From NCBI GenBank assembly GCA_030592635.1, contig JAUVIS010000004.1:1-44590 (forward strand): 44,590 nucleotides of DNA, given 5' to 3'. Positions 1 through 36,966 of the stretch are shown here, piece by piece. Made by a program: the position numbers and the translations under genes. This stretch comes from Candidatus Fermentibacteraceae bacterium. Its GTDB lineage: Bacteria; Fermentibacterota; Fermentibacteria; Fermentibacterales; JCC-6. The notes under the pieces were generated by a model that saw only the letters and a list, made by a program, of their open reading frames with translations, ran no database searches and was not told the origin of the DNA. Numbering within the stretch: the stretch's first letter is position 1; the number at the start of each line of letters is the position of its first letter.

Positions 1-480
1 GATTACAATTCCTTCTGGCAGGCGATTCAGATCCTTTTTACTGAAGCTGAGGCTATTGCCTGTTCTGAACCGGTGATAAATGCTGCACTTCGGGCAAACG
101 GTTCAACCGGGGTTCCGACCGGTGGCAGTCCGTGTGGTGTGTCTTCTCTGCGGCTGCGGCCCGGCGGAGAGATAATGCCGTGTGTGTACTGGGATCACAG
201 CCCTGTTACCATGGAGAATTTTCTGTCCGGGGAAATGGATCTGCCTTCCGGCTGCGATCTTCCCCGTCCGGAACTCTGTGATGACTGCGACTGGTTTGAT
301 ATCTGCCGTGGAGGTTGTTCCGGCCGCAGACTCTATACAGGTAAATCAGAACCGGACATCTACTGCTTCATGAAAGAGGGGCGTTCTGTACCGGAGCTTC
401 CCCTGAAACCCGTTCTCTCAGGAGATGACTACATACACGCATCATACCTCTGTACCATAATAGCGGAATTCGGGGAATGA
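1..480 (+). CDS. Radical SAM/SPASM protein, C-terminal part (5' truncated by window)
   Basis: Frame 1 is open from base 1 (DYNSFWQAIQILF...). SPASM-type Cys pattern CGVSSLRLRPGGEIMPC...CDDCDWFDICRGGCSGR. Stop overlaps the next ATG (ATGA at 477-480). Confidence 0.8.
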   Translation, partial: DYNSFWQAIQILFTEAEAIACSEPVINAALRANGSTGVPTGGSPCGVSSLRLRPGGEIMPCVYWDHSPVTMENFLSGEMDLPSGCDLPRPELCDDCDWFDICRGGCSGRRLYTGKSEPDIYCFMKEGRSVPELPLKPVLSGDDYIHASYLCTIIAEFGE

Positions 481-1760
481 ACCACGAGTCATTGTTTCTG
501 CATACCTACGATGTGAATGGCGAGAAAGTTTACTTCCATTCTCTGACACTTGATCTTTTCAATTCGCCGGAAGAGTGTCCATCTCCGGAAAGAGAGCAGG
601 AACTGCTCGCTTCATACCGCGAAAAAGCCGGAGAGAACAGCGGAATTATCATGGGCTGCATGTTTCTGACAACACGGTGTTCCAGAAGCTGCGGGTACTG
701 CTTTCTGTCCGGTGTTTCCCCGGGTGATATGACGATTGCGGAGATTGACGCAGGTCTTGACCTGATGGGAAAGGGCCCCGCAGATCTTCTGTTGTACGGG
801 GGGGAGCCCTTTCTGAGGCCTGATCTTGTTCTTCATGTGATCAACAGGATAAGAAGCAGTGGTGTGAAGATAAACCTTTCCACAGCCACGGGAGGAGTTC
901 CTGTGGATCCGTCCCTCGCCCGTGAGCTGGCACTGGAAGACGCATTCATAATAGTGTCTATTGACGGCCCTCCTGCTGTACACAACAGCGCAAGACCGCT
1001 CAGAGGCAGAGGAGATTCCTTTAAAGATGCTGAAAAAGCTTTTTACATATTCAGAGACGCGGGATGCAGAGTTGGTATATCTGTTACAGTTACAGAAAAA
1101 AGCATAGCAACAGTCCGTGAGGATTTCAGGTGGCTGATGGAGCGTTTTCAGCCGGATGATATGGGGCTGAACCCATGGTTGCACCCCTTGAAGGGTGGCA
1201 GAGCGAATCCGTTGCAGGCCACTGGTCCCGGCATCCTCGAAGCTGTTACATCCTGTATGGAAATGGCCATTGACCGGGGAATGTACATAGAACAGCTCGC
1301 GAGAAGGGTAAGACCCTTCGTCAGACGAACTCCAAGGCTGAAAGACTGCGCTTCAGCCGGAGGTCGACTGGTACAGGTACCCGGAGGAATTGCCGGTACC
1401 TGCGATTGCATGACCGTCTGCGGCGACCATGGCGTGTCTCTGAAGAAGACCGGTGAATTTGATGATCTGCTCACACGGTTCAGAGATCTTTCTCCTGTGA
1501 ATTTTCCCGACTGTCTTTCCTGCCCCGCGCTGGCTTTGTGCGGAGGAGGGTGCAGATACGATGCTTATCATGCTTCCGGGGCACTGAACGGGTCCCGCCC
1601 GGAAAGGTGCTCATACGAGAGGGAGTTTCTCAGATGGATGATAGAAAGGTCTGTTGAGCAGGGCAGGGAATCGCTGATTCCGGCGGGTGGTTTTGACACG
1701 GTCGCCATGCCTATGCCCGTGGGAACCATGATCGGCGAGGAACAGGCGGTGGCTGATTGA
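477..1760 (+). CDS. Radical SAM/SPASM domain protein
   Basis: CSRSCGYCF (CxxxCxxC) cluster motif, GGEPFLRPD, VSIDGPPAVHN, C-terminal CLSCPALALCGGGCRYDAYHASG SPASM motif. Confidence 0.88.
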   Translation: MNHESLFLHTYDVNGEKVYFHSLTLDLFNSPEECPSPEREQELLASYREKAGENSGIIMGCMFLTTRCSRSCGYCFLSGVSPGDMTIAEIDAGLDLMGKGPADLLLYGGEPFLRPDLVLHVINRIRSSGVKINLSTATGGVPVDPSLARELALEDAFIIVSIDGPPAVHNSARPLRGRGDSFKDAEKAFYIFRDAGCRVGISVTVTEKSIATVREDFRWLMERFQPDDMGLNPWLHPLKGGRANPLQATGPGILEAVTSCMEMAIDRGMYIEQLARRVRPFVRRTPRLKDCASAGGRLVQVPGGIAGTCDCMTVCGDHGVSLKKTGEFDDLLTRFRDLSPVNFPDCLSCPALALCGGGCRYDAYHASGALNGSRPERCSYEREFLRWMIERSVEQGRESLIPAGGFDTVAMPMPVGTMIGEEQAVAD

Positions 1761-2899
1761 AATACAGATACGGTAATGCACGGTTTGATCCTGTAACACT
1801 GAGAATCTCCGTGGGAGATTCACCTGAGGACTGCGGCGCGTCTGTTCCAACCGTTCCAGCTTCTGAAGTAAAAGCGGTTCAGGCCGTTGTAACCAGACGA
1901 TGCAATCTGTCGTGTTCTTACTGCAATGTGCTGCTTTCCGGAGATACTCCCGATGACATGACCTTCGAAATTGCTGACACTGTCATAAAAACTGCCGGAG
2001 ACGCACCTCCGGGCAGACTGGTAATGGTTACAGGAGGGGAACCTCTTCTTGTTCCTGATATCACCTTTCATATTCTGAAAAATACTGATTCCCCGAAGGT
2101 GTTGTTTACCAACGCTACACTTGTTTCTCCGGAGATTGCTTCTGAACTGAAACGGATGAGAGTATCTCCAGTTGTTTCTCTGGACGGCACGGAAAGCGTT
2201 CACAATTCACAACGCTGCGGTTCCTGGGCCAGAGCAGCAAAAGGGCTGGATACTCTCAGAGAAGCCGGTGTCTCATATGGTATCTCAACAGTGGTGAGTT
2301 ATCACAACCATCAGAACATCTCATCGGAAATGGAAGAGCTTTACAGCAGATTCATGCCTGCAAGCATGGGATTCAATATTCTTCACTGGACCAGGGGGAA
2401 CTTTGATCCCATCTCCGCTGAAGCATACACGGACGCGATTGGCAGAGTATTTCACACTGCTCTGAAACACGGGATCTTTGTGGATCAGATCGCACGCAGA
2501 ATAGATCCCATTATCAGCGGTGTGTACAGGCACAGAGACTGCGCGGCTCTGGGGGGCAAGATCGTCTTTCACCCGGACGGCAGAATATCAAACTGCATAA
2601 GCGGAAGAGAAATGAAGGATTGGTCCGGCAGGATGCCTGTCTTTATGGAGTACTGCGCAGATTGTCCCGCTGCGGGAATCTGCGGCGGCGGTTGTGCCTG
2701 GGATGCCATTCACCTTGGAGGTATAGGTAAACCTGACGCGCGACACTGCATGTGGGTCAAACACATACTGGATCTCTTCCTTGAGGATGTGGCAAAGCAT
2801 TTTCCGGAGGGGCCTGTCTCACGCAGGGAGCTTAAGAAGAGATACGGCAGTCTGGTCACAAGAGGCGGTTCCGCGCTTACCGGATCCATTGGTCACTGA
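1757..2899 (+). CDS. Radical SAM/SPASM domain protein (paralogue of the preceding gene)
   Basis: TTG start overlapping upstream stop (TTGA). CNLSCSYCN motif, TGGEPLL, VSLDGTESVHNSQR, C-terminal CADCPAAGICGGGCAWDAIHLGG. Confidence 0.87.
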   Translation: MKYRYGNARFDPVTLRISVGDSPEDCGASVPTVPASEVKAVQAVVTRRCNLSCSYCNVLLSGDTPDDMTFEIADTVIKTAGDAPPGRLVMVTGGEPLLVPDITFHILKNTDSPKVLFTNATLVSPEIASELKRMRVSPVVSLDGTESVHNSQRCGSWARAAKGLDTLREAGVSYGISTVVSYHNHQNISSEMEELYSRFMPASMGFNILHWTRGNFDPISAEAYTDAIGRVFHTALKHGIFVDQIARRIDPIISGVYRHRDCAALGGKIVFHPDGRISNCISGREMKDWSGRMPVFMEYCADCPAAGICGGGCAWDAIHLGGIGKPDARHCMWVKHILDLFLEDVAKHFPEGPVSRRELKKRYGSLVTRGGSALTGSIGH

Positions 2900-2901
2900 G
2901 A

Positions 2902-3552
2902 ATGAATGTTCTCCGGGGATGGAGCGCTGAGCAGGTCAGGGAATACACAGCAGGCAGAGTTTTTTCAGATGCAGACAGCTACATACTGCGGAGACTTGAG
3001 GAAAACTCTCCCGATACAGTGGTTGAAATCGGCTGCGGACCGGGAGTAATTGCAGAAAAGTCTGCATTTATCCGGGAGTATATCTGTACCGATGTAACTT
3101 TTGACTTTCTTAAGGTTGCATCTGAGACTGCGTCAAATGGTTTATTTATTAACTGTTCGGAAGATATACCTCTGCCTGACAATCACGCTGACTGCGTACT
3201 GGCGATGGTTGTTCTTCACCACCTGCCGAAAGAAGCCCTGGGGCATTCCCTGTACGAAATACACAGAATTCTGAAGCCGGGTGGCATTTTTCTGCTTCTT
3301 GAAGACTGGTGTTTTTCAAGAGGAATAAATGAATTTGAAGAGGAGGCCAGAAGGTGGAGATTCAGAAACGGTTCTGATGAAAACCATCTTGCAGCTGAAG
3401 AGTGGAGCAGAGAGATAAAATCTGCAGGTTTTTCCTGCGCTGATCCGGTATGGGTTGAGAGACCGTTCCATACCACTGCCGCTCATCTTACCAGATGGCC
3501 GGAGAAGGAAAGAAAAGTGAGAATGATGGCACTGGAATCAGTCAGGCAGTAA
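2902..3552 (+). CDS. Class I SAM-dependent methyltransferase
   Basis: VVEIGCGPGVIAEKS motif I, PLPDNHADCVLAMVVLHHL, LKPGGIFLLLEDW (Methyltransf_11-like). Confidence 0.8.
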   Translation: MNVLRGWSAEQVREYTAGRVFSDADSYILRRLEENSPDTVVEIGCGPGVIAEKSAFIREYICTDVTFDFLKVASETASNGLFINCSEDIPLPDNHADCVLAMVVLHHLPKEALGHSLYEIHRILKPGGIFLLLEDWCFSRGINEFEEEARRWRFRNGSDENHLAAEEWSREIKSAGFSCADPVWVERPFHTTAAHLTRWPEKERKVRMMALESVRQ

Positions 3553-4769
3553 TGAAAATTCTTCTTGTTCAGACCTGGCTGGGAAGAGAGCAGCATCCGG
3601 TATTGCCTCTGGGGCTTGCTTCTATCGCCGGTTCCCTTCCTTCACACAATGTCAGGATTGAGGATCTGAATTTAAGCAGATCTCCCATGGAAAGACTCAG
3701 GTCGGTTCTTACGGATTACAAGCCTGATGCTGTGGGATTCAGTGTGAGAAACGCCGACACAACCTCTTTTTTTGACCGGTTCAGCTACATTCCCTGTTGT
3801 CTTGAGCAGATAGAACTAACCTCCCGATTGTGTCCGGATGCTTACATACAGGCAGGAGGAGCGGGCTTCAGCATTTTCGCGGAACAGATAATGAACCACT
3901 CTCCATACATACACTGCGGGGTGACCGGGCACGGTGAGCTTATTGTTGAGGAACTTGTCAGGCACAGGGCGCGGGGTCTTTATCATGGTGAAAAGGGAGG
4001 TTTTGTCTCTCCAGAATTTGATCTCCTTGATTTGACCTCATATACGCCTTTTGAAGAAAATCTGGCAGTTGGCGTGGAGGTTAACAGAGGGTGTGATCTC
4101 AGATGCCGGTACTGCTCCTACTCCCTGATATCGGGAAAGAGCGTTCAGGAAAGACCACTCGAACTGATAAGAAACGACATCAGTCAGCTTGTCGCGCGGG
4201 GTTCCGGCCACCTGTTCCTGATAGCTCCCATCCTGAATAATCGAAAAGCGAGGGGGGTGGAGGTGGCTTCAATGATCGGATCCATGAACTCAGATATTAC
4301 CTGGGAGGCGTACCATTCCGCTTCTGGTTTTGACGGAGAATACGCTTCATTGATTCGTGATTCCGGCTGTACGGCTGTTTCCTTTTCTCCTGACGGAGGA
4401 ACAGCCTCGCAGATGAAGAGAATGGGAAAAGAGTATACGCCTGCTGACCTGGAATTGGCAATTGCTGCGGCGGTTTCCAACGGATTACAGGTATCTCTGA
4501 ACATATTTCCCTGGGATGCCGCCTGCGGTATCTCTGAGATGATCCGGGCCTTCCGGAACGGAGCCGGGTGGGGCAGACTGGCTGGAGAGGGGCTGAGAAG
4601 ACTGAGATTCAGTCTGATCCGGAAGCTTCCGGAAACTCCGTTTGCTCCTGCGGAAGTCTCTTTGAACCCGTTGATTCCGGTAAAGGAGTTTGTCAAACCT
4701 TCTGCGTCTGGAATGATTGTTTTCCGGGGAATGAAAAGAATTTTTGACAGGAATTTAAAAAACACATGA
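3552..4769 (+). CDS. Radical SAM protein with N-terminal B12-binding-like domain
   Basis: ATG at 3552 overlaps upstream stop (TAATG), preferred over the 3495 start in the ORF track. N-terminus MKILLVQTWLGREQHPVLPLGLASIAG..., YKPDAVGFSV, then CDLRCRYCSY cluster motif. Confidence 0.78.
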   Translation: MKILLVQTWLGREQHPVLPLGLASIAGSLPSHNVRIEDLNLSRSPMERLRSVLTDYKPDAVGFSVRNADTTSFFDRFSYIPCCLEQIELTSRLCPDAYIQAGGAGFSIFAEQIMNHSPYIHCGVTGHGELIVEELVRHRARGLYHGEKGGFVSPEFDLLDLTSYTPFEENLAVGVEVNRGCDLRCRYCSYSLISGKSVQERPLELIRNDISQLVARGSGHLFLIAPILNNRKARGVEVASMIGSMNSDITWEAYHSASGFDGEYASLIRDSGCTAVSFSPDGGTASQMKRMGKEYTPADLELAIAAAVSNGLQVSLNIFPWDAACGISEMIRAFRNGAGWGRLAGEGLRRLRFSLIRKLPETPFAPAEVSLNPLIPVKEFVKPSASGMIVFRGMKRIFDRNLKNT

Positions 4770-5446
4770 GAGTATTGATACTGGCAGCGGGGATTGGAAG
4801 CAGGCTTGGCGCTGAAATTCCCAAAATACTTGTAAAAGTGGCAGGGAAAACCATCCTCAGCCGCCATGTTGAATCTCTGGCCGCTGTGGGAATATCACCG
4901 GGGGAAGTCACAGTAATTACCGGCTACAGATCCGGTGATGTGGCGGATTCCTGCCGGGCTCTGGGCATGAATGCTCTCTTCAACCCGCATTGGGACACTC
5001 CGGGTACTTTTTCATCGTTTTTTGTTTTTCCCGCCACGGATAACCCCCTGCTGATAATTCACGGAGATCTTGTATGGGAAGCAGGTCTGGCGCCGGGTAC
5101 TCTTGAAAACAGGGGAGATATAGTGGTACCTGTGGATCCGCGAAACAGAGCTGACGAGGAAGCCATGAAAGCGGAGGTTCGCGGGAGTCGACTTCTTCAC
5201 CTCTCAAAATCCCTGCGAGTTTCCAGATCCGCGGGAGAATCCATGGGCATGTTCCTTGTCCGCAATCACCGGGTACTCCGCAGGTTTTCAGCGTGTCTGT
5301 CAGAGGACTCTCTGGCAAGTTTTGATGATGCGGTGAATCTTGTCGCCGCTTCGTTCGAGGTAAGACCGCTGATCACCGATAAGTTTGTGTGGGAGGAAAT
5401 AGATACACCTGAAGATCTTACACTGGCTGAAAGAAAGTTTTCATGA
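4766..5446 (+). CDS. Nucleotidyltransferase, LicC/PntC/IPCT-like (probable cytidylyltransferase type)
   Basis: MRVLILAAGIGSRLG...PKILVKVAGK nucleotide-binding signature; C-terminal FVWEEIDTPEDLTLAE typical of this fold family. Confidence 0.75.
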   Translation: MRVLILAAGIGSRLGAEIPKILVKVAGKTILSRHVESLAAVGISPGEVTVITGYRSGDVADSCRALGMNALFNPHWDTPGTFSSFFVFPATDNPLLIIHGDLVWEAGLAPGTLENRGDIVVPVDPRNRADEEAMKAEVRGSRLLHLSKSLRVSRSAGESMGMFLVRNHRVLRRFSACLSEDSLASFDDAVNLVAASFEVRPLITDKFVWEEIDTPEDLTLAERKFS

Positions 5447-6180
5447 CCAGCTGGGAACCAATCTGGAAGAGAAATCAACTGCACACCGGACTTATCCACC
5501 GTACTGGAAGGAAGCTGGCCGAATACGGTGATCTTCAGAGAATAGTTACGGGGATACTGAAAAAAGAATGCAGAATAGGGGAAAATACCCGCATACTGGA
5601 GGTTGGCTGCGGATCGGGTCCTGTGGCAGGCAGACTCTCAAGGTTATCTCCGATGGTTTACGGTGTGGACATCTCGCCCGCAGCAGTTGAACTGACAAAG
5701 GAAACTGGAGTGGAAGCCGCGATAGCCGACGCACGGGAACTGCCCTTCAAAGACGGAAGCTTTGATCTGGTCTACAGCTCAGGAGTTGTGGATCTGTTTA
5801 ACGATACTCAGGCTTCCATTTTACTAAAAGAGATAGTAAGAGTTACAGGAACCGGCGGCAGGATAGTAGTTATTACCGCCTGGAGCGGCTGTCGGATTCA
5901 TGAAACAGTGAAGAAGTATCTGATCAGACGACAGCGGTGGCGCTACGGGCCAAAGCGGACTTTCAAAACTCTTGAGCATCTTCTGCCCGCCGAAGGCACG
6001 CTTATCAGTGAGCGGGCAATGGGTGCCCTTTTTCAATTCAGGTTTTTATCATATCTTTTCGAAGAGAAGAAGCTCGCGAGAAGGCTGTATCATCTTGTTT
6101 ACCTGTTGCTTTCAATCCTTCTCTGGCCTCTGAACAGGCTGCCGGGCGCAGTACTCGTAACGACAGTGGAGAAAAAATGA
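5443..6180 (+). CDS. Class I SAM-dependent methyltransferase
   Basis: ILEVGCGSGPVAGRLSRLSPMVYGVDISPAAVELTK, ADARELPFKDGSFDLVYSSGVVDLF. Confidence 0.82.
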   Translation: MTSWEPIWKRNQLHTGLIHRTGRKLAEYGDLQRIVTGILKKECRIGENTRILEVGCGSGPVAGRLSRLSPMVYGVDISPAAVELTKETGVEAAIADARELPFKDGSFDLVYSSGVVDLFNDTQASILLKEIVRVTGTGGRIVVITAWSGCRIHETVKKYLIRRQRWRYGPKRTFKTLEHLLPAEGTLISERAMGALFQFRFLSYLFEEKKLARRLYHLVYLLLSILLWPLNRLPGAVLVTTVEKK

Positions 6181-6938
6181 ACGGGATTCCCGGTATTTCA
6201 GCTTTGAGATCTATCTGTCAGCCGAATGATCTGGATGTCTGCCTTTACAGAAAACTGTTCACTCGTCGTTTTTCCATTTACTTGACATCACTGTTTCTTC
6301 GGATGGGTTTTTCCGCCAACAGCGTTTCTGTTGTCAAGGGTATTATTGCCTGTACCGGAGCTGTTCTTTTTGCTCCGGGTAAACCTGTCTGTTTTATCAC
6401 AGGTGCTCTGCTTCTTCAGTTTTCATTCGTTCTTGATGCCTGTGACGGAGAGGTAGCCAGGTTCAACGGGAGTAACCGCAGAGCCGGAGGTGAATTCATT
6501 GACAAGATAGGAGATACAGCTTCAAGAGGACTGTTTTACGGTGCCTGGGGCTGGGGGGTATACAACCTTTCAGGGGATATCAGGGCTGTTATAGCCGGGA
6601 CTGTTATGGCTGGCCTCTGGCTTGTGGTCAGATTCTGTGCCGTGGAAACCCTGCTTGAGAGCTTTTCCAATCATGTCGGGACTCCAGCAGGTCGTGAAGA
6701 GAAAGAATCTTTAGAAAAAATATTTGTGAGGAATCCAGGTGGCGGACGTGTTGAATACTATCTTTCAGCGTTGTTCCATCCGTGGGTGAACATGGCGGCC
6801 GCAGCCGCTTTACTGTCCTTCTTTCCGGTTCTTTTCTCCGGTCTTTTCTGGGGCTACTTCACTCTCTGGATCATCAACACGGTCAGGAAGATACGGAGTG
6901 GATTCCATAATTCGAACTTTGAAAGGCCACTTCAATGA
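6177..6938 (+). CDS. CDP-alcohol phosphatidyltransferase family membrane protein
   Basis: LDACDGEVARFNGSNRRAGGEFIDKIGD matches the CDP-OH-P motif DGxxAR...GxxxDxxxD; several hydrophobic segments. Confidence 0.83.
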   Translation: MNGIPGISALRSICQPNDLDVCLYRKLFTRRFSIYLTSLFLRMGFSANSVSVVKGIIACTGAVLFAPGKPVCFITGALLLQFSFVLDACDGEVARFNGSNRRAGGEFIDKIGDTASRGLFYGAWGWGVYNLSGDIRAVIAGTVMAGLWLVVRFCAVETLLESFSNHVGTPAGREEKESLEKIFVRNPGGGRVEYYLSALFHPWVNMAAAAALLSFFPVLFSGLFWGYFTLWIINTVRKIRSGFHNSNFERPLQ

Positions 6939-7462
6939 TGAGTGTATACGGGGTAGTCCTTGCGGGTGGAAAGTCAAGCAGGATGGGAAGAGACAAAAGG
7001 AAGGTAATCCTTTCCAGCGGTTTGTCCATGGAGGATAATGCAATGCAGATATTGAATTCCTCCCGTTGCACACGCTCTTTCGTATCCGGTCCGGGGGGAA
7101 TTCCAGACATCCATCCAGGCAGGGGTCCAATGGGAGGTATTGAAGCTGCCCTTCACGAGCTTCGGGGCAGCTGCCTGATGTTTCTTCCCTGTGATATGCC
7201 CTTTGTGATACCGCATCAGGTGGATAGAATTATCAGATGTTTTACGCTCAGCCCCCGCCTTCCTGCAGTGGCCATGGCCCCGTTAATGGAGCCGCTGTTC
7301 GCAGTGGTTCCGACTTCGTGGGGGGAGAGGGTATCAAATGCCGTGACTCTGGGGCATCTAAAGGTGGGAAAATTCTGGCAGGACTGCGGATTCACGCAGG
7401 TAATTATCCCGGAAGAATGTCTGCTGAAAGACGCGGATTATCCATGGGAGGTTTCTGCGTGA
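6935..7462 (+). CDS. MobA-like NTP transferase
   Basis: YGVVLAGGKSSRMGRDKRKV, GPMGGIEAALHEL and LMFLPCDMPFV are MobA-family signatures. Confidence 0.75.
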   Translation: MMSVYGVVLAGGKSSRMGRDKRKVILSSGLSMEDNAMQILNSSRCTRSFVSGPGGIPDIHPGRGPMGGIEAALHELRGSCLMFLPCDMPFVIPHQVDRIIRCFTLSPRLPAVAMAPLMEPLFAVVPTSWGERVSNAVTLGHLKVGKFWQDCGFTQVIIPEECLLKDADYPWEVSA

Positions 7463-8367
7463 TTCGTCTTTACTTTGAACTGTTTGCTCTGTTCAGCTCA
7501 GCAGCGCAGTTTGTTACGCTGCCTGGTATTCCTGTTGCAATACAGCCTGTATACGGGGGGATTGCAGTGGCATGTACAGATCAGCCCTCAATCTGCCTTG
7601 TAGATAGCGGTTTTGCATTGGAGCTGCTGTCTTACGAAGTACTGGCCCCCCGTGATCTCTGCCTGTGGAACGAAGAGCTGGTCGCGTCAGACTTTGCAGG
7701 GCGATCGATTGTAATGGACAACCGGGTAATTGCGGTTCCGGGGAGTCCCGACGGAATGTGTGAAGTATTCTGGAATTCTTCCTCTGTTTCGGAACTGGCT
7801 GTGGCTCTGTTTGATCCGGGTGCTGTTGTTCTTGTGCAGCAGGACGGTTCGATTTCAACACTTGTGGAAATGCCCGGAGTCAAGTGCCTTTCTTCCTGCG
7901 ATGCGGATGGAGACGGGGATATTGACATCTTTGCCTCGGGATGCGGAAGTGGCGTTGTCTTAATCGAGAATCGGGGCACTCTGCCCGTGGTTCACTGTAT
8001 CGGAACAATTCAGGCCGGCGTTAAGAGATGCCGCGCTGCTGATATGGATAACGACGGTCTTATAGATGTGGCAGGTATCGCCTGTGCTGAAGGAGGGGCT
8101 GTCTGGTGGAAAAATCCGGGTAATCCGGATGAGCAATGGTTTTCTTATGAGATTGATGTTTCGCTGGAAGGGCCGAAGGACATCTTCTGCCGCGGCGACA
8201 GCATGGTTATCGCTTCACTGTTCAGTGGCGCTGTCTTTTCCTTTGATCCCGATATTCAACTGCCGGAGGGCTTTATATGCTGCTTTATCTCTGACAATGG
8301 AGATATTATTCTAGGACACAGGTTGGGATTTCTTGTAACAGTATCAGGGAATGGAGGCTATTTATGA
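7459..8367 (+). CDS. FG-GAP/VCBS-type beta-propeller-like protein
   Basis: GTG at 7459 overlaps upstream stop (GTGA), preferred over 7237. DADGDGDIDIFASG and DMDNDGLIDVAGI Ca-binding repeat motifs; hydrophobic N-terminus. Confidence 0.65.
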   Translation: MIRLYFELFALFSSAAQFVTLPGIPVAIQPVYGGIAVACTDQPSICLVDSGFALELLSYEVLAPRDLCLWNEELVASDFAGRSIVMDNRVIAVPGSPDGMCEVFWNSSSVSELAVALFDPGAVVLVQQDGSISTLVEMPGVKCLSSCDADGDGDIDIFASGCGSGVVLIENRGTLPVVHCIGTIQAGVKRCRAADMDNDGLIDVAGIACAEGGAVWWKNPGNPDEQWFSYEIDVSLEGPKDIFCRGDSMVIASLFSGAVFSFDPDIQLPEGFICCFISDNGDIILGHRLGFLVTVSGNGGYL

Positions 8368-8654
8368 GTTCAACAGGTGCCGGAGCGGCTGCGGGTCACT
8401 ATGCGGCGATGGCTAATGCGGTTAAAGCCATTGGTTCAATTATCAAGCTTGATCCGGAGGAATTTCAGAGGGTACTCAGTCTTGCTGATAATCCACTGGT
8501 TGTTACCGCCGAAGGCCGAGTATTTTCCAGATGGTACAAGTACATATTTTCATACAAAGGTCTGACATTTTACTGCAAAAGCAGATCTGAAATTGTTCTT
8601 CCCGGAGATGTCCGGATTATTCAGGCGCAAAAGATAAGCATACCTGATTTCTGA
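8364..8654 (+). CDS. Conserved-looking small protein of unknown function (96 aa)
   Basis: ATGA overlap with upstream gene; Ala-rich N-terminus then IIKLDPEEFQRVLSLADNPLVVTAEG...YKGLTFYCKS. Confidence 0.6.
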   Translation: MSSTGAGAAAGHYAAMANAVKAIGSIIKLDPEEFQRVLSLADNPLVVTAEGRVFSRWYKYIFSYKGLTFYCKSRSEIVLPGDVRIIQAQKISIPDF

Positions 8655-8924
8655 TTTCAGAATGGTACCGCTTTTCACACCGGTTAAGCATCACAATGTG
8701 CTTAATGAGACAAAGAAATGAACCTGTTACGATATTCACAGCACAACAGAAAATTGATGCAGGGCCGTTCGTTGCGTGCGAAAGCATAGCGTGAACAACC
8801 GCTGTTATTACACTTGACAAGCCCCTGTGTTTGTGGTCTCTTTGGGGTTCGCACACTATCGTAATAGCTATCTGATTACCCAGTTAACCCTAATTTGGAC
8901 AACTCAATGGAAAGGATTCAGGTT

Positions 8925-9323
8925 ATGGCAGACAAGATAAGAGTACTGCTTGTCGATGATGATCCTGATTTCATCGAGGCCAACAGCATCATCCTTGACG
9001 CCAGCGGATTTGAGGTTCTTACAGCTTCAAGCGGAGCCGAGGGCCTCAAGAAGGTCGAGGAAGAAAAGCCGGATGTTGTTGTTCTTGATGTTATGATGGA
9101 AAACACTGATGAGGGTTTCGCGGTGGCAAGAAAGATACGGCACAAACTTCACAGTGATGTTCCCATCATAATGCTTACATCGGTCGCGCAGGCAACCGGT
9201 TACACATTCAAGCCGGAAGAGCACCCCGATTTCTTCCCGGTGGATCAGTTTCTTGAGAAACCTGTTCCTCCCACTGTGCTGGTTCAGAAGATCAAAGATG
9301 CGCTTGCGAAGGGAGACAAGTAG
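8925..9323 (+). CDS. Response regulator receiver-domain protein (stand-alone)
   Basis: MADKIRVLLVDDDPDF, VVVLDVMMEN phospho-Asp, PIIMLTSV, FLEKPVPP Lys. ATG 8925 preferred; the ORF track starts at TTG 8895. Confidence 0.85.
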   Translation: MADKIRVLLVDDDPDFIEANSIILDASGFEVLTASSGAEGLKKVEEEKPDVVVLDVMMENTDEGFAVARKIRHKLHSDVPIIMLTSVAQATGYTFKPEEHPDFFPVDQFLEKPVPPTVLVQKIKDALAKGDK

Positions 9324-9784
9324 TGGCACGCAATCCCGGAGAGATTGTTGCTGAGGGTGTCAGTGAGTTCGGTAACGGCCGCGAGAGGATCATGCAGATC
9401 CTCACAAAGGTCAATGATGAACTCAGCTGGGTTCCCGCAGAAGCAATTGAGGCAATAGCCGAGGCAACAGATGTCAGCGCCGCTGAAGTCTACAGTGTTG
9501 TGAGCTTTTACAGTTTTTTCAGTTCAGAACCTCGCGGCAGGAACATTGTTCGTCTCTGCAGCACTATCAGTTGTGCTATGGCCGGCCAGGGTGATGTCCT
9601 TGAAGCTTTGATCAGCGAGTTTGATATTGAACCCTTTGAAACAACTGAAGACGGGCGTCTGACCATTGAAACCACACCCTGCATTGGTCTTTGTGACCAG
9701 GCTCCAGCCATGCTGGTGAATGGTGAACCTCATGTAAAACTTACACCCGAAAAGGCGTGCGAAATCGTACGCGGACTGGAATAG
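9323..9784 (+). CDS. NuoE/HydC-like [2Fe-2S] subunit of NAD(P)-linked hydrogenase
   Basis: GTG start at 9323. Thioredoxin-like 2Fe-2S pattern VRLCSTISCAMAG ... TTPCIGLCDQAPAMLVNG (Cx4C...Cx3C). Confidence 0.88.
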   Translation: MARNPGEIVAEGVSEFGNGRERIMQILTKVNDELSWVPAEAIEAIAEATDVSAAEVYSVVSFYSFFSSEPRGRNIVRLCSTISCAMAGQGDVLEALISEFDIEPFETTEDGRLTIETTPCIGLCDQAPAMLVNGEPHVKLTPEKACEIVRGLE

Positions 9785-9792
9785 GAGGCATC

Positions 9793-10998
9793 ATGGAAAA
9801 GAAAGTGCTGCTTGCTGAAAACCAGCCTGAATTCGGCGCGGGGCTTGAAAAGGCCCTTAATATGACATCGGCTGATGTGGTGTACGCTGTGCGTGACTCC
9901 GGAATCAAGGGCCGCGGCGGAGCAGGATTCCCGACAGGCGTGAAGTGGAACCTTGCCGGTGCCGCATCGTCTGATGTGAAGTATGTGATCTGCAATGCTG
10001 ATGAGGGCGAACCGGGCACATTTAAAGACAGACTTCTCATTGAAAAGTACTCTGAAAGGCTCATTGAGGGTATGGCCATTGGCGGATACGCCATAGGCGG
10101 TTCCCACGGCATTATCTACCTCAGAGCGGAATACCCCTATCTCATTCCAGCTATAGAAAAAGCCAGGAAGAACCTTATGGACAAGGGTCTTTTAGGCGAG
10201 AACATTCGGGAAAAAGGTTTCAACTTTGATGTTGAGATTCGCCCCGGAGCTGGAGCCTATGTCTGCGGAGAAGAGACCTCTCTCATTGAGAGTCTTGAGG
10301 GCAAAAGGGGTGAGCCCAGAAACAAACCGCCTTACCCTGTGAACAGCGGCTATCTCAACAAACCTACCATCGTGAATAATGTGGAAACTTTCTGCGCTGT
10401 TCCGCACATCGTTCTCAACGGCCCTGAATGGTATGCTGATCTCGGTGAAGGGGACTGCTCCGGAACAAAACTCTTCAGCATCTCAGGTGATGTGGAAAAG
10501 CCCGGTGTTTACGAACTTCCCATGGGAGCGCAGTTGAAAGATCTGCTTGAGCTTGCCGGAGCGACTGATGTTCAGGCTGTTCAGGTTGGCGGTGCCAGTG
10601 GAAGTACTGTTCCTGCTTCCGAAATACATCGTTCGCTTTCCTTCAAGGATCTTCCTCCCGGAGGCTCTGTGATAGTTTTTAATCATACAGTAAACATGGT
10701 TGAGGTTCTCGAGAACTTCATGGACTTTTTTGTTCACGAATCATGCGGACAGTGTACTCCCTGTCGGGAGGGTAACCTTAGACTGATGCACGCGGCTCAG
10801 GATATCATCAACGGTGATATCTGCTGCAGGGAATGTGTTGCTCCATTCTTTGAACTCGCCGAGGCCATGAAGGTGTCCAGCAAGTGCGGTCTCGGGCAGA
10901 CATCCGCCAACTGCTTCGTTGACATTATCAATAATTTCGTGGAGCTCTCTGACGAATGTCATTGCGGAGAGTGCTGCTGCGAAGGAGGTGATGAGTAA
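9793..10998 (+). CDS. NuoF/HydB-like flavoprotein (NADH-binding) subunit
   Basis: ATG 9793 after AGGAGG. SGIKGRGGAGFPTGVKW, NADEGEPGTFKDR, ICGEE-type GAYVCGEETSLIESLEGKRGEPR, SCGQCTPCREG. Cys-rich tail CHCGECCCEGGDE. Confidence 0.9.
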   Translation: MEKKVLLAENQPEFGAGLEKALNMTSADVVYAVRDSGIKGRGGAGFPTGVKWNLAGAASSDVKYVICNADEGEPGTFKDRLLIEKYSERLIEGMAIGGYAIGGSHGIIYLRAEYPYLIPAIEKARKNLMDKGLLGENIREKGFNFDVEIRPGAGAYVCGEETSLIESLEGKRGEPRNKPPYPVNSGYLNKPTIVNNVETFCAVPHIVLNGPEWYADLGEGDCSGTKLFSISGDVEKPGVYELPMGAQLKDLLELAGATDVQAVQVGGASGSTVPASEIHRSLSFKDLPPGGSVIVFNHTVNMVEVLENFMDFFVHESCGQCTPCREGNLRLMHAAQDIINGDICCRECVAPFFELAEAMKVSSKCGLGQTSANCFVDIINNFVELSDECHCGECCCEGGDE

Positions 10999-12776
10999 TG
11001 CACAGCGTTACCATCAACATCAATGGAAAAGAGTACAACGCAGAAGAGGGTTCAACAATTCTTGCGGCCTGTAAAGACATTGGAATTGAAGTTCCCACAC
11101 TCTGCTACCATCCCGACCTGTCCACCGCCGGCAATTGCCGTGTGTGCGTGGTTGAGGTGGAAGGATGGAATACACTTGTTCCAGCCTGTGTTACGCCGAT
11201 CACACCCAACATGGTTGTCAGGACAGACAGCCCAAAGGTTAGACGGACAAGAAAGCTTCTACTTGAACTGATCCTCGCTGACCACAATAACAACTGTCCG
11301 GAGTGCGAGAGAAACGGAAACTGCGAGCTTCAGAGTCTTGCCGAGAGGTACAACATCAGGCTTAATCGTTTTCAGACCGATGGAAAGCCTGAGAGTCTCA
11401 TACAGGTCAGCCCCGGCATAATGCGGGACAGCAGCAAATGTATCATGTGTACCCGTTGCGTGAGAACCTGTGAAGAACTCCAGAGCGTTGCTGTTATAAA
11501 GTCAGTCGGACGCAGCGCGGAAATTCACATCGGAACTTTCGAAGAAAGAGGTCTTGGCGATGTAGCCTGTACTCAGTGCGGACAGTGCATCAACCGCTGT
11601 CCCACAGGAGCTCTTTATGAGAAGGACGAGACAGCGCCAGTCTGGGCAGCGCTGGAAGACCCCGAGAAGATAGTTATTGTCCAGACAGCCCCTGCTGTTC
11701 GTGTCGGTCTCGAGGAAGCCCTTGGTCTTCCCACAGATCACCACACAGGCAAAATGGCTGCTGCTCTGCGCAGGCTGGGTTTTAACAGGGTGCTTGATAC
11801 AGACTTCTCCGCTGACCTTACAATCATCGAAGAGGGGCATGAGCTTCTTTTCCGCCTCAAGGACGCACTTGTAGAGAAAAAGGAAGTTCCACTTCCCATG
11901 ATCACAAGCTGTTCACCGGGCTGGATCAAGTTTATAGAACACAAGCATAATGATCTTCTTGATAACCTTTCAACCTGCAAGAGTCCACAGCAGATGTTCG
12001 GTGCCATTGCAAAAACTTACCTTTGCGACAAAGAAGGTTTTGATCCCGCAAAGATTGTAAGTGTTTCCGTTATGCCCTGTACAGCTAAAAAGTTCGAGAA
12101 GGATCGTCCTGAGATGAAGGACAGCGGCTTTCAGGATGTGGACTATGTCATCACAACTCGTGAGCTTGCCAGAATGATTCAGGAAGCCGGTATCGATTTC
12201 GATCATCTTCCCATAGAGAAGTTCGACAGGTTCATGGGAGATTCCACAGGTGCCGCTGTTATCTTCGGAGCAACAGGCGGTGTTATGGAGGCTGCTCTCA
12301 GAACTGCCTATGAGGTTGCCACAGGGAAAGAGATACCCTTCAAGGGACTCAACGTGATGCCTGTACGCGGATTTGAGGGAATCAAAGAAGCAGCAGTTCC
12401 AATGCCTGCGGAAATGGCTGAAGGCTGGGAGTTCCTTGCCGGAGTTACTCTGAAGGTTGCTGTTGCTCACGGTCTCGCCAATGCGGATAAACTTCTCAGG
12501 TCTGTAAAGGCAGGTGAGGCCGAGTATCACTTCATTGAGATCATGGCCTGCCCCGGTGGCTGCCTCGGTGGCGGCGGACAGCCGATACCCACAGACATGG
12601 AAAAGAGAATGGAGAGGATGCGCGCCATCTACGCGGAGGACGAGAGTCTTCCCCTGAGGAAATCCCACGAGAACCCTGAGATTCAGCTTCTCTATGCGGA
12701 ATACCTCAAAGAGCCTCTGGGTCACAAGTCTCACCATCTGCTTCACACGAAGTACACAAAAAGGGATAAGTTCTAG
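10998..12776 (+). CDS. hydA: [FeFe] hydrogenase large subunit (HydA, NuoG-like N-terminus)
   Basis: N-terminal 2Fe-2S (CYHPDLSTAGNCRVCVVEVEGW), HNNNCPECERNGNCELQ, two 4Fe-4S motifs, H-cluster motifs TSCSPGW, MPCTAKKFE, MACPGGCLGGGGQP. Confidence 0.95.
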   Translation: MHSVTININGKEYNAEEGSTILAACKDIGIEVPTLCYHPDLSTAGNCRVCVVEVEGWNTLVPACVTPITPNMVVRTDSPKVRRTRKLLLELILADHNNNCPECERNGNCELQSLAERYNIRLNRFQTDGKPESLIQVSPGIMRDSSKCIMCTRCVRTCEELQSVAVIKSVGRSAEIHIGTFEERGLGDVACTQCGQCINRCPTGALYEKDETAPVWAALEDPEKIVIVQTAPAVRVGLEEALGLPTDHHTGKMAAALRRLGFNRVLDTDFSADLTIIEEGHELLFRLKDALVEKKEVPLPMITSCSPGWIKFIEHKHNDLLDNLSTCKSPQQMFGAIAKTYLCDKEGFDPAKIVSVSVMPCTAKKFEKDRPEMKDSGFQDVDYVITTRELARMIQEAGIDFDHLPIEKFDRFMGDSTGAAVIFGATGGVMEAALRTAYEVATGKEIPFKGLNVMPVRGFEGIKEAAVPMPAEMAEGWEFLAGVTLKVAVAHGLANADKLLRSVKAGEAEYHFIEIMACPGGCLGGGGQPIPTDMEKRMERMRAIYAEDESLPLRKSHENPEIQLLYAEYLKEPLGHKSHHLLHTKYTKRDKF

Positions 12777-17528: not shown

Positions 17529-18203
17529 ATGACAGTTTCTGATTCGGCGTTAAGGTTACTGGCAGCCTTTGTTCTGGGTGGCATTGTGGGTCTGGAAAGA
17601 CAGATACACGGAAGACCGGCAGGCTTGAGAACACATATACTCGTTTGTCTTGGTGCCGCGGTAGCGGTTATCGCCGGCGTTCAGGCAGAAGGATCTTTTC
17701 CGGGTATAACCATAGATACAGGGCGTATTATCGCCGGTGTTATCACCGGCATCGGGTTTCTGGGAGCAGGGACCATCATTCGTCACCGCGAGGGAATAGG
17801 CGGACTCACAACAGCCGCATGTATCTGGTTTGTCGCGATGATCGGGATTCTCTGCGGGTTCGCTTTTTATATTCTGGCTGCAATGGCGTCTGTCGCGGCA
17901 CTTCTGGTTCTTCTGGTTCTGGATGCTCTGGAGGACAGGCTACCTACGGCCAGTTACTGGATGCTCACTGCGAAGACCGGCGACAGACCCCTTGAGCCAT
18001 TCAAGATGGAATGTGAAGAGATTCTGGAAAAAAGGGGTATTCGTGTTAAAAGCGCCACATTCAAGATTTCCGACAGCGGTATTGAACTCAGTCTTGTACT
18101 GCGAGCCAGGAATAGAAAAACAGACTTTGAAGCAGCGGAAACAATAAGAAAAATAGGGGGAGTTACCAGCGTCAAATGGGCGCACAGGTCCGGAGAATGG
18201 TAA
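17529..18203 (+). CDS. MgtC/SapB family membrane protein
   Basis: [37 protein letters not shown] and [27 protein letters not shown] are MgtC signatures. Confidence 0.92.
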
Positions 18204-19090
18204 AAATCGGCGTGGCTCTCGGTGGTGGCGGGGCAAGAGGATACGCCCATTTCGGAGCTCTTTTCGCTCTTGAAAAAAGTGGAATCCCTATTCACTGCAT
18301 TGCCGGTACAAGCATTGGAGCTGCGGTGGGGGCTTTGTGGGCTACATATCAGCATGTAGACTGCTACAATTCATTGAGAGAACTGGATAAGGCTGGAGTC
18401 AGAGACATTCTTGACCCGGAGTTACCTATGATCACCGGATTCCTGCGGGGGCGTAAGCTCTACGATGTCATGGAAAGCTGGTTCAAGGGATTCAGGGTCG
18501 AGAGTCTTACAAGGCAGTTCTGCGCCAACGCGGTTATGCTTAACACAGGTGAGGAAGTCACTTTCAATTCGGGGCAGCTTTCGGATGTGCTCCGGGCAAG
18601 TGTTTCAGTCCCGGTGATACTGTCGCCATGGCGGATAGGGGAATTTACTTATGTTGATGGAGGCGTTGTTAATCCCCTGCCCGTGAGGCAGTGCAGGGAG
18701 ATGGGGGCTGATGTGGTTATTGCTGTGAATCTTCTGGGGGTTGTGCCCGTGGTGGAAACCTGTTCACCGGAGCAGGACGAAATACGAAGAGTTGCTCACA
18801 GATTGCATCTTCCCGAGGGAGTTATTGAGGTAGCTTCAGACATCCCCCTTCTCCATAAATTAAGAAATCCAAAAGTTCCGGAAACTGCTTTTGCCGCTGT
18901 TCTTATCTCTCAGAGAGCCCTTGTTAATGCAAATCTCAGGGAGTGGACACCTGATTATCTGATTCAGCCCGACCTGAGCAAGTACACCGGAGCTGAGTTT
19001 CATCTTGTTGAAGAGATAAGCGATATAGGTCTGGGGGCGGCGGAAAAGGTTATACCGGAGATCATCCGGGATTTGGACATATCAGTATAG
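18176..19090 (+). CDS. Patatin-like phospholipase (RssA-like)
   Basis: [29 protein letters not shown] (GxSxG), [11 protein letters not shown] (Asp of dyad). ATG 18197 is an alternative start. Confidence 0.9.
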
Positions 19091-23509: not shown

Positions 23510-24568
23510 ATGGGTATAAAGAACTTCTTTGTCAGGTTTACGGGTTCGGGAAAATCCAGTTCCCAGGGAATGTTCTCATCTGCCATGGCAATTGATCTTG
23601 GTACAACCAACACAATTATTCACCAGCTTGACAGAGGTATCGTTCTTGAGGAGCCAAGTGTAATAGCCGTTGAAAGGGACAGTGGAAATGTTCTTGCTGT
23701 TGGCGGGGAAGCGAAAGCTATGCTCGGTCGAACAGGAGGGGATATTTTGGTAATCCGGCCCCTTAAAGATGGTGTTATTAAAGAGGCTACAGCTACAATG
23801 GCCATGCTGAGAAGGTTCTTTGAGCAGGCGCAGACAAGACGGTTTTCCATGCGTCCCAGAGTTCTTGTCTGTGTTCCCAGCGGAATCACAGAGGTTGAGG
23901 TTAACGCTGTACGCACCTCCCTCGAGAGGGCAGGCGCCAGGGAAGTGCTTCTTGTACCCGAGCCTCTTGCCGCGGCAGTTGGTGTCGGGCTTCCCGTTGA
24001 GTCAGCAGTGGGTAACATGGTGGTGGATATCGGAGGAGGAACCACTGAAGTCGCGGTAATCAGTCTGAGTTCCATAGCGGCTGACAGCTCCATAAGGGTT
24101 GGTGGCGATGAGATGAACGAAGCAATAATCAACTACATGAAGAAAAGTGCTTACCTTCTTATAGGTGAACGCACAGCTGAAATGGTGAAGATGAGACTTG
24201 GGTCAATGCTGGAGGAGGATGCCAGAGAAGAAGAGGTCAGCGGAATGGACGCTACTTACGGTATTCCCAAAACCATTACTGTGAAGGCCAGTCAGATAAG
24301 ATCTGCTCTGCAGCAGCCTGTTAACGCAATAATTCAGGCCGTGCAGCAGGGGCTTGAGAGAACACCTCCGGAGCTGGGTCGAGACATTGTTAACCGCGGA
24401 ATTGTTCTTACCGGTGGCGGCGCGCTGCTTCGGGGACTGGATGTTCTTCTTACCAGAGAAACAGGTCTGCCAATAAGAATTGCCGATAACCCTCTTTCCT
24501 GTACTGTACTCGGAGCAGGTATTATTCTCTCCGATCTCTACAGATATCGCAAACTGCTGATCAGCTGA
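23510..24568 (+). CDS. mreB: Rod shape-determining protein MreB
   Basis: MAIDLGTTNTIIH, VVDIGGGTTEVAVISL, ILVIRPLKDGVIKE; followed by mreC-mreD-mrdA-rodA. Confidence 0.95.
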   Translation: MGIKNFFVRFTGSGKSSSQGMFSSAMAIDLGTTNTIIHQLDRGIVLEEPSVIAVERDSGNVLAVGGEAKAMLGRTGGDILVIRPLKDGVIKEATATMAMLRRFFEQAQTRRFSMRPRVLVCVPSGITEVEVNAVRTSLERAGAREVLLVPEPLAAAVGVGLPVESAVGNMVVDIGGGTTEVAVISLSSIAADSSIRVGGDEMNEAIINYMKKSAYLLIGERTAEMVKMRLGSMLEEDAREEEVSGMDATYGIPKTITVKASQIRSALQQPVNAIIQAVQQGLERTPPELGRDIVNRGIVLTGGGALLRGLDVLLTRETGLPIRIADNPLSCTVLGAGIILSDLYRYRKLLIS

Positions 24569-24570
24569 TC

Positions 24571-25314
24571 ATGAGAAGCAGCGATGTCAGACTGGCACGG
24601 AACATCGCGGCAGCAGTCGCGATGTTGTTTTTTGGCCCCTCTGTACTGGGGGTTGGCGGCTCTATCCTCGGCGCGAAATTTGCGTCTTTGTTTTTTTCTG
24701 AAAATCAATCCGCTGATTCCGACTACCTTTCGCTGTCTGTAAAACTGATGCTGGAAAACGCAGAGCTGCGGGAGATGGCGGCAAAAAGTAAACTTTACCG
24801 CTCAATGCTTCATTACACAAGAATGCCTGAGGTCACAGCCCTGGTCGGGAGGGTCATGTACAGATCCGAGGGGCTTATCAGGGGAGACCTTGTTATTGAT
24901 CGCGGGTCGGATCACGGCATTTACACAGGTGCGATCTGTATTACCAGCAGAGGACTCGTGGGCATTATCACATCAGTTGAATCATCCAGTTCCACCGTAG
25001 TTCCCATCACCAGCCCGGCGATTCATGTGAGTTGCATTACTGCGACTACCGGTTCTCTGGGGATTCTAGGCTCTGAATCAAGTGGAAAACTCAGGCTCGA
25101 GTATGTGGATAATTCCTCTGATCCGTTCATCGGAGAGACGGTTCTTACCAGCAGATTCGGGGGTGTTTATCCCGAGGGAATTGTTGTCGGGACGGTGGAG
25201 GACATCTCAGAGGGAGGCCAGGGCCTGAATCTTTCCCTCTCCGTGGTTCCGGCAGTTGATTTTGAGAGAGTTGATGAGGTTCTTATCCTTCTTTCCGGGG
25301 ATCAGGCAGAATGA
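24571..25314 (+). CDS. mreC: Rod shape-determining protein MreC
   Basis: N-terminal TM, coiled region, VIDRGSDHGIYTGAICITSRGLVGIITSVESSSSTVVPIT, FGGVYPEGIVVGTV. Confidence 0.92.
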   Translation: MRSSDVRLARNIAAAVAMLFFGPSVLGVGGSILGAKFASLFFSENQSADSDYLSLSVKLMLENAELREMAAKSKLYRSMLHYTRMPEVTALVGRVMYRSEGLIRGDLVIDRGSDHGIYTGAICITSRGLVGIITSVESSSSTVVPITSPAIHVSCITATTGSLGILGSESSGKLRLEYVDNSSDPFIGETVLTSRFGGVYPEGIVVGTVEDISEGGQGLNLSLSVVPAVDFERVDEVLILLSGDQAE

Positions 25315-25790
25315 GGGAGCATCTGTCCGGCTGGCTGATTGTTTCTCTGGCAATAACAGCGCAGTTCCTTCTTGAAGCTACTCTTGGAAGAGTTGTGACA
25401 GCACCTGCCATTCTTGTCCCGGTGCTTGTCTACCTGTCTCTTTCCCATTCGAACTACTGGTCAATCGAAGCTGCCTTCTGGAGCGGCTTTGCAATTGATC
25501 TTCTTCTCCACCAGCCGATTGGAGTCAGCTCAATAGCGATGCTCACCGGGATTGCTCTGTCGCGCTGGATACTGAGGGTGACCACTGGAGCTCTCGATAT
25601 GACTTTTGTGATTAATGCGTTTCTGGCCTCAATTCTGTCCGACCTGTTTTTTATCTTTCTGGCTGCAAGACCGGTGGGAAGCGGATTTGGTATTTCCACT
25701 TTGCTTATCGTGCCTCGTGTTCTTTTCTCGCTTTTACTTTACATGATCATTCCCGTGATGTTTGGAAGAAAGAGCAGGGAACTCGGATGA
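25311..25790 (+). CDS. mreD: Rod shape-determining protein MreD
   Basis: Hydrophobic ~159-aa protein between mreC and mrdA; WSGFAIDLLLHQPIG resembles the MreD core. Confidence 0.8.
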   Translation: MREHLSGWLIVSLAITAQFLLEATLGRVVTAPAILVPVLVYLSLSHSNYWSIEAAFWSGFAIDLLLHQPIGVSSIAMLTGIALSRWILRVTTGALDMTFVINAFLASILSDLFFIFLAARPVGSGFGISTLLIVPRVLFSLLLYMIIPVMFGRKSRELG

Positions 25791-28688: not shown

Positions 28689-28748
28689 CAGCAACACTGC
28701 TCTTCGTTATCATACAGCATTCGTTAAACCAACAGATTGAAGGGGAAC

Positions 28749-29561
28749 ATGCATCCGATTCTTTTCAAAATAGGTTCACTGCCCATAAACAGCTACGGAC
28801 TTATGCTGGCTGTTTCATTTCTGCTGGGAGTGAAACTGGCATCGCGCAGAGCCTTTAAACTGGGCATTCCCGCTGATGAGACAGTTAATCTCAGCATCTG
28901 GATAATGGTCGCGGCAATAATTGGATCCAGGGCTTTTTATGTAGTCACACACATGGATCAGTACTCCGGGGATCCTCTGGCAATTGTGGCATTCTGGAAC
29001 GGCTTGTACGGGCTCAGCATGATGGGCGGTGTCATTCTTGCTGTGATTACCGGATTTACCTGGATAATAAAGAAGGGATGGCCCGTCTGGTCCTTTGCCG
29101 ATGCCATTATTCCATCTTTTGCGCTGGGAATATTCATCACACGAATAGGCTGCTTTTTCAATGGATGCTGCTTTGGCACTGAAACAAGCTGCTCCATTGG
29201 CGTGTCTTTTCCTTCCGGCTCACTGCCCTTTTCGGTGTTTGGGAGTGCCCCTATCCATCCGGCACAGCTTTACAGTTCTCTGGGCGGTCTGGCTATTCTG
29301 CTTATACTGCTTATTTCCGATCGTAGAAAAAACTTTCCCGGATTCATTTTCTCCATGTTTCTCGGCCTTTACGGCGCAACAAGATTTGGTATGGAAGAGT
29401 TCAGGTATTTTGATCATGCCCTCAGCAGCAGTTTCGGCTACAGTGTTTTTGCAGCCAGACCGGGGATGACAGATAATCAGCTTATCAGCCTTGGCATGAT
29501 TTTCCTTTCTCTCGCTCTGGGAATATGGCTCTATTATCGGGATCAAAGAAGTTTTTCCTGA
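28749..29561 (+). CDS. lgt: Prolipoprotein diacylglyceryl transferase
   Basis: SYGLMLAVSFLLG, GLYGLSMMGGVI, RIGCFFNGCCFG, IHPAQLYSSLG. ATG 28749 behind AAGGGG. Confidence 0.93.
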   Translation: MHPILFKIGSLPINSYGLMLAVSFLLGVKLASRRAFKLGIPADETVNLSIWIMVAAIIGSRAFYVVTHMDQYSGDPLAIVAFWNGLYGLSMMGGVILAVITGFTWIIKKGWPVWSFADAIIPSFALGIFITRIGCFFNGCCFGTETSCSIGVSFPSGSLPFSVFGSAPIHPAQLYSSLGGLAILLILLISDRRKNFPGFIFSMFLGLYGATRFGMEEFRYFDHALSSSFGYSVFAARPGMTDNQLISLGMIFLSLALGIWLYYRDQRSFS

Positions 29562-35535: not shown

Positions 35536-35549
35536 TTTAAGGAGACAGA

Positions 35550-36776: not shown

Positions 36777-36789
36777 AGGGAAGAGAAAA

Positions 36790-36966
36790 ATGATTGATCC
36801 GAGACTGCTTGAAATTCTTGTATGCCCCAGGTGCAAGGGGGAACTTGAGTACAGGACAGAAGGAAATGAAAGTCTGATATGTAAAAAATGTGCTGTGGTT
36901 TTTCCAGTCAGAGACGATATTCCGGTAATGCTTATGGATGAGGCAGTGCCTGTTAAGAGCCAGTGA
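36790..36966 (+). CDS. Trm112-like small zinc-ribbon protein (58 aa; absent from ORF track)
   Basis: ATG at 36790; [52 protein letters not shown] is the Trm112/YcaR family pattern. Confidence 0.88.

Follow-up and report, generated by a model that had tools for sequence, protein, structure and literature searches.

What product would call for three SPASM radical S-adenosylmethionine (SAM) enzymes, a B12-binding radical SAM enzyme, two methyltransferases and a nucleotidyltransferase beside a CDP-alcohol phosphotransferase, and do such genes form one pathway at all? The question is raised by the window analyzed here, a stretch of 44,590 nucleotides that is the whole of contig C19 (JAUVIS010000004.1) of a Fermentibacterota metagenome-assembled genome (MAG; 2.35 Mb, 89% complete). 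Eleven tightly packed open reading frames (ORFs), A to K, all on the + strand, fill its first 8,654 positions; the nearest named records with the same genes are from Candidatus Sabulitectum, Candidatus Aegiribacteria and Hyd24-12 bacteria. Based on our comparative analysis, the conserved unit is a core of ten genes (X, Y, A, B, C, E, D, G, F and H), two of which, X and Y, lie upstream of A in relatives. The core may encode a horizontally mobile pathway in which a modified polyol- or sugar-like group would be activated as a cytidine monophosphate (CMP) derivative by F and transferred by H to an alcohol acceptor, probably a lipid, an interpretation to which we give an even chance of being correct. 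The genes in the window are the following.

1-480, + strand: A, SPASM radical SAM enzyme, the C-terminal 159 of about 339 amino acids (full gene in relatives; motifs in L047)
477-1760, + strand: B, SPASM radical SAM enzyme, 427 amino acids (Pfam PF04055; CSRSCGYC and SPASM motifs)
1757-2899, + strand: C, SPASM radical SAM enzyme, 380 amino acids (Pfam PF04055; motifs; alignment)
2902-3552, + strand: D, class I SAM-dependent methyltransferase, 216 amino acids (Pfam PF08241)
3552-4769, + strand: E, B12-binding-domain radical SAM enzyme, 405 amino acids (Pfam PF02310 and PF04055, above cut-off)
4766-5446, + strand: F, cytidylyltransferase-type nucleotidyltransferase, 226 amino acids (Pfam PF12804; nearest solved relative of an orthologue, 2xme; alignment)
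5443-6180, + strand: G, class I methyltransferase with a hydrophobic C-terminus, 245 amino acids (NCBIfam methyltransferase families; sequence)
6177-6938, + strand: H, CDP-alcohol phosphotransferase, multi-helix membrane protein, 253 amino acids (Pfam PF01066; invariant motif; PDB neighbours)
6935-7462, + strand: I, MobA-like nucleotidyltransferase, accessory (NTP_transf_3 by Pfam; NCBIfam)
7459-8367, + strand: J, FG-GAP/propeller-type protein with an apparent N-terminal signal sequence, 302 amino acids (Pfam PF13517)
8364-8654, + strand: K, 96-amino-acid protein outside the conserved core (no family match)

Gene A is represented by its last 159 amino acids because the contig starts inside it; the full protein has 339 in the closest relative. 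Neighbouring genes overlap by 4 nucleotides at the A/B, B/C, E/F, F/G, G/H, H/I, I/J and J/K junctions and by 1 nucleotide (TAATG) at D/E, with a gap of 2 nucleotides at C/D. The start of E was corrected from 3495 to 3552, at the TAATG junction, and that of J from 7237 to 7459. Apart from this gap and these two starts, the run of eleven + strand genes joined by short overlaps that an earlier, sequence-only reading of the window described is borne out.

Evidence that the genes belong together comes from their distribution. Of the 36 genomes of the family, nine, in three genera, gave the cassette in searches with A, C and H (G000, G002, G008, G011, G016, G019, G028, G033 and G034), and the loci read agree in gene order. 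An alignment of A was scanned against 84,980 species, with patterns strict enough that further carriers may exist. Strong matches outside the Fermentibacterota fell in three MAGs, L066 (Black Sea), L067 (Calditrichaeota DeMMO3_2) and L068 (Modern_marine.mb.49), which share one phylum, apparently the Calditrichota, where A is found in 7 of 39 genomes. In this second phylum the order is E-X-Y-A-B-C-D-F-G-H. The contig of L068 begins just before X, with at most a fragment of E, and in L067 Y is absent from its place in the cassette. L097 and L098, also of the second phylum, have the complete set of ten, flanked on either side by unrelated genes. Between the phyla, A proteins are about 42% identical, B proteins 36% and C proteins 34%. 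In a sample of 385 genomes, full-strength matches were confined to the family, and in a sample of 99 genomes every genome with a match to C also has a full-strength H, the others having only weak, distant matches to H; MAG completeness and sampling limit all statements of absence given here. An arrangement whose genes recur in unchanged order in further genera and in a second phylum is not due to chance.

The sequence-only reading had treated the genes as one unit, to be abandoned if relatives did not keep them together. Co-conservation across two phyla upholds the unit for the ten-gene core; its extent has to be redrawn, as the window lacks X and Y, which lie upstream, and I, J and K are not core. 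That reading had not recognized the combination as a named system either, and no description of the ten-gene set was found in the literature covered, namely open-licence papers. Weak radical SAM matches in G187, G218, G323, G306, G166 and G227 were set aside, as they lie in other neighbourhoods without the cassette, several with a small PqqD-like gene just upstream. In G011, a 71% complete MAG, several cassette genes and NuoF are split by frame changes (L053, L054), which are probably sequencing errors rather than decay.

The cassette may also have diverged differently from the genomes that carry it. Cassette proteins of the window are 67-86% identical to those of G019, which belongs to another genus, while the DnaE proteins are 55% identical; to G008, of the same genus, the values are 59-74% and 78%. 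This reversal of the order of identities for cassette proteins relative to DnaE suggests that the cassette has passed from one genus to another. In a tree built from cassette genes the genera stay separate, with weak support; the case for transfer comes from identities and branch lengths, not topology.

Where the contigs of relatives reach further, two more genes, X and Y, precede A. X is a cytosolic molybdopterin oxidoreductase, present in 15 of the 16 carriers (the contig of the exception, G034, ends inside A) and in none of the 12 non-carrier genomes tested. The copies aligned, from G028 and G033, have an extra C-terminal cysteine-rich ferredoxin-like stretch. The best solved match of X is acetylene hydratase (2e7z, E values of 5e-49 and 4e-66), and the Cys at the metal-ligand position is kept, followed by Leu, Tyr or Phe and not by the His of formate dehydrogenase. 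X thus resembles the acetylene hydratase/dimethyl sulfoxide reductase family in its best solved match and its conserved metal-ligand Cys but differs in being part of a biosynthetic cassette. An identity as formate dehydrogenase was rejected, with scores of 198 and 240 bits against an Fdh-alpha cut-off of 666 and the metal-site His replaced. Y is an epimerase/dehydratase-type TIM barrel. Its structural model, with a predicted local distance difference test score (pLDDT) of 95, resembles ketose 3-epimerases, AsbF, AtHYD and IolE, and the E, D and H residues that occupy apparent metal-site positions are invariant. The resemblance to ketose 3-epimerases and to dehydratases/hydratases therefore points to a polyhydroxylated substrate. 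The additional X and Y copies seen in genomes of the second phylum turned out to belong to ordinary molybdenum enzymes or to no recognizable pathway.

In the window's own genome, X sits on contig C89, at its broken end, and Y was not found, as would be expected if a stretch between C89 and C19 were missing. In G002, contig C14 has X close to its end, with the beginning of an FG-GAP gene after it, and the tail of an FG-GAP gene opens contig C90, where Y and A follow; a one-gene insertion between X and Y is likely here, if not proven. In Sabulitectum, an adenosylhomocysteinase-like gene lies upstream of X (L129 7997-9403; L130 3467-4873), preceded by an ArsR-type/methyltransferase gene. An adenosylhomocysteinase-like gene also adjoins X in G011, but in none of the other genera read, and may contribute SAM recycling.

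A, B and C are, judged by their cysteine motifs, SPASM radical SAM enzymes. The CxxxCxxC, CX9-15GX4C and CX2CX5CX3C patterns are complete in all three, in one protein per phylum for each. As the window copy of A is the C-terminal part only, the check for A used full-length relatives; A of L047 shows CX10GX4C and CX2CX5CX3C. The same patterns are found in SPASM maturases such as mycofactocin MftC, GeoRSP, FibroRumin and PapB, but A, B and C score far under the equivalog cut-offs of those families and the cassette holds no precursor peptide. The B12-binding and radical SAM domains of E both exceed their Pfam cut-offs. The closest named families to E are the ladderane-type TIGR04072 (137.7 bits, cut-off 360) and BzaD (134.5 bits, cut-off 450); however, E falls far below both cut-offs, and other genes of those pathways were not recognized beside it. 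D matches class I methyltransferases in both Pfam and NCBIfam, and G, whose family call comes from NCBIfam alone, matches many methyltransferase families there. Among the NCBIfam matches listed, no cassette protein reaches an equivalog cut-off, and therefore none can be equated with a known enzyme; the sole curated cut-off reached among them is that of the SPASM domain model TIGR04085, by A of the window and its L067 relative.

F and H can be considered as a pair. F is an NTP_transf_3 protein by Pfam. When the L097 orthologue was compared with solved structures, the best match was CTP:inositol-1-phosphate cytidylyltransferase (2xme, E value of 8e-17), followed by PntC and LicC. By analogy with these nearest solved relatives only, F would use cytidine triphosphate (CTP). 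In H, which matches CDP-OH_P_transf, the catalytic motif DxxDGxxARx(8-9)GxxxDxxxD is invariant across the aligned proteins, and the structural model contains membrane helices. Both by sequence and by model the neighbours of H are AF2299, PIPS (PgsA1/PIPS) and IPCT-DIPPS. Hidden Markov models built from F and H found about eight fused proteins of 417-457 amino acids in other genomes, with an F-like domain followed by an H-like domain. These fusions therefore support activation by F combined with transfer by H.

Known systems share this logic in part. F and H are distant relatives of the two domains of IPCT/DIPPS, and the F-like/H-like fusions elsewhere have the same domain order. The cassette, in contrast, has F and H as separate genes with eight more enzymes, and inositol-1-phosphate synthase is missing from 15 of the 16 carriers. 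An inositol or di-inositol-phosphate product was rejected on this ground, the synthase being found in none of the nine Fermentibacterota carriers and in one of the seven of the second phylum. With PIPS/AIPS and other class I CDP-alcohol phosphotransferases H shares the complete catalytic motif and, as fold neighbours, AF2299 and PgsA1/PIPS, but identity is only about 20% and H is accompanied by its own nucleotidyltransferase. The phosphonolipid and LicC/PntC head-group pathways likewise combine a nucleotidyltransferase with a CDP-alcohol phosphotransferase, and PntC and LicC are among the solved relatives of F; however, the cassette has no choline or aminoethylphosphonate genes, and phosphoenolpyruvate mutase is found in none of the 16 carriers, on which account a phosphonate or phosphonolipid product was rejected as well. 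Matches to H in other genomes, where the loci were opened, belonged to other nucleotidyltransferase/CDP-alcohol systems without the cassette. Among loci of this kind, a fused nucleotidyltransferase/CDP-alcohol phosphotransferase gene directly adjoins a B12-binding-type radical SAM gene in L107 (5740-9453) and a radical SAM gene in L111 (540-2957), and the pairing with radical SAM enzymes may thus recur in other pathways. L108 (7881-10547) has a nucleotidyltransferase, a dehydrogenase-like gene and a CDP-alcohol phosphotransferase adjacent to one another, another candidate head-group-type set.

How might the ten genes work together? From direct observations, namely which genes are present and how they are conserved, their domain families and catalytic motifs, and the link given by F-H fusions, a route can be proposed. 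A small cytosolic polyhydroxylated substrate, sugar- or polyol-like by analogy with the relatives of Y, F and H, would be rearranged by Y, X, A, B, C, E, D and G, presumably ahead of the other two enzymes. The step of E would probably be a C-methylation, of the B12-dependent radical SAM type. The phosphate of the substrate would then be activated with CTP by F, and the membrane enzyme H would displace CMP, forming a phosphodiester link to an alcohol acceptor. These last two steps follow known logic, as far as the analogy with characterized relatives carries. The acceptor would most likely be a diacylglycerol-type lipid, and the resulting head group would be without precedent; the lipid is the least certain part of the scheme. 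Two features favour it over a soluble acceptor, the hydrophobic C-terminus of G and the nature of H, a membrane protein close to PIPS-type enzymes. The single pathway suggested by the sequence-only reading, with a modified, CMP-activated group transferred to an acceptor, fits all findings, including the F-H fusions elsewhere and the conservation in two phyla; the membrane or surface location which that reading gave to the acceptor is still conjectural. Tentatively, and with somewhat less confidence than in the pathway itself, the product could be a new class of membrane lipid or a lipid-anchored cofactor in strict anaerobes. Its head group would then be the work of four radical SAM enzymes and a molybdenum enzyme, with CTP for activation and a CDP-alcohol phosphotransferase for attachment.

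Several points weigh against this proposal. SPASM enzymes act mostly on peptides. No cassette gene marks a substrate, and the chemistry ahead of F is guesswork. H scores 23.6 bits, barely above the Pfam cut-off of 22, its L067 orthologue is just below it, and the model of H is of moderate quality (pLDDT 76). In L067, Y is not beside the other cassette genes, its best match being on another contig. Finally, IPCT-DIPPS, the nearest solved relative of F and H together, makes a soluble phosphodiester, so that a lipid acceptor is not required.

This last point leads to the alternative that survives best, a soluble, compatible-solute-like phosphodiester made as in the di-myo-inositol phosphate pathway, in which F would make a CDP-linked compound and H would join it to a second phosphorylated or free alcohol. 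The presence of IPCT-DIPPS among the best solved relatives of F and H, and the fusion of F- and H-like domains elsewhere as in that enzyme, agree with such a product. However, inositol itself is improbable given the distribution of its synthase, PIPS-type lipid enzymes are structurally as close to H, and four radical SAM enzymes would hardly be needed for a compatible solute. We consider a soluble product unlikely. Slightly less likely still is a compound with redox activity or a cofactor-like role, such as an aromatic ring derived from a cyclic polyol, anchored by the phosphodiester. The proximity of E to BzaD and TIGR04072, the moderate scores of A, B and C to the cofactor enzymes MftC, NirJ and AhbC/D, and the closeness of X to acetylene hydratase would accord with it, but all these likenesses are distant and far under curated cut-offs, and the cassette has no respiratory partner.

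If instead A, B and C modified a genetically encoded peptide, the cassette would be a system for a ribosomally synthesized and post-translationally modified peptide (RiPP). Many of the SPASM families matched are indeed peptide maturases, and B and C have N-terminal stretches ahead of the radical SAM domain. Nevertheless, a Pfam scan, the only one made for this, found no PqqD or RiPP recognition element domain in A, B or C; the overlapping or abutting genes in L097 and the window leave no room for a precursor; and no conserved small ORF was seen at the cassette loci, a precursor elsewhere in the genome not having been searched for. As F and H would also be left unexplained, we regard a RiPP as highly improbable. 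That unrelated gene groups lie together by chance, with no single pathway, is hardly credible, for although I, J and K vary between genomes, the core is present or absent as a whole and its order is kept across two phyla, with only E moved.

Returning to the proposed lipid- or acceptor-linked pathway, the three remaining genes, I, J and K, are outside its ten-gene core. Gene I scores 61.5 bits against an NCBIfam MobA cut-off of 151.85, and matches in control genomes are also mostly under the cut-off. It is missing from the cassette in G016, G028 and G034, each of which has a MobA-type gene elsewhere, and is the only MobA-type match in G000, G002, G008, G011 and G019, the window's genome among them. 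In total, all nine Fermentibacterota carriers have a MobA-type match; of 20 non-carriers tested, 10 have one. A distant X homologue in G113 shares a 4-nucleotide overlap with a MobA-like gene (L132 7615-10376). Given the distribution in carriers and this overlap, gene I most likely serves the molybdenum enzyme X rather than the product. Gene J, with one FG-GAP repeat match, adjoins the cassette wherever a Fermentibacterota locus extends far enough and is not in the loci of the second phylum; it is a Fermentibacterota accessory. Gene K, for which Pfam and NCBIfam scans gave no family match, is beside the cassette only in the window and its close relative G002. In the latter, a 505-amino-acid repeat-rich protein with an apparent signal sequence is inserted between E and F (L047 7439-8956).

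A pathway kept together in two phyla of uncultured anaerobic bacteria, and apparently passed sideways, must make something useful. The gene set is defined and expressible, being complete in L097 and L098, and two things are predicted, a CMP-activated metabolite not known before and a phosphodiester arising from the action of F and H. With a lipid as acceptor, the product would be a head group whose biosynthesis has no precedent, and it might serve as a biomarker for anoxic sediments. With any other acceptor, SPASM enzymes would still be put to a new use here, on a substrate that is not a peptide.

Beyond the cassette, the window continues with a response-regulator gene, after which come NuoE-, NuoF- and [FeFe]-hydrogenase-like genes (8895-12776). 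This group is conserved directly behind the cassette in G002 and G011; the hydrogenase genes (9.3-12.8 kb) adjoin the cassette only in close relatives and are not part of it. A patatin-like gene lies at 18176-19090, and positions 23510-43144 hold ordinary core genes, MreB, PBP2, DnaE and IleS.

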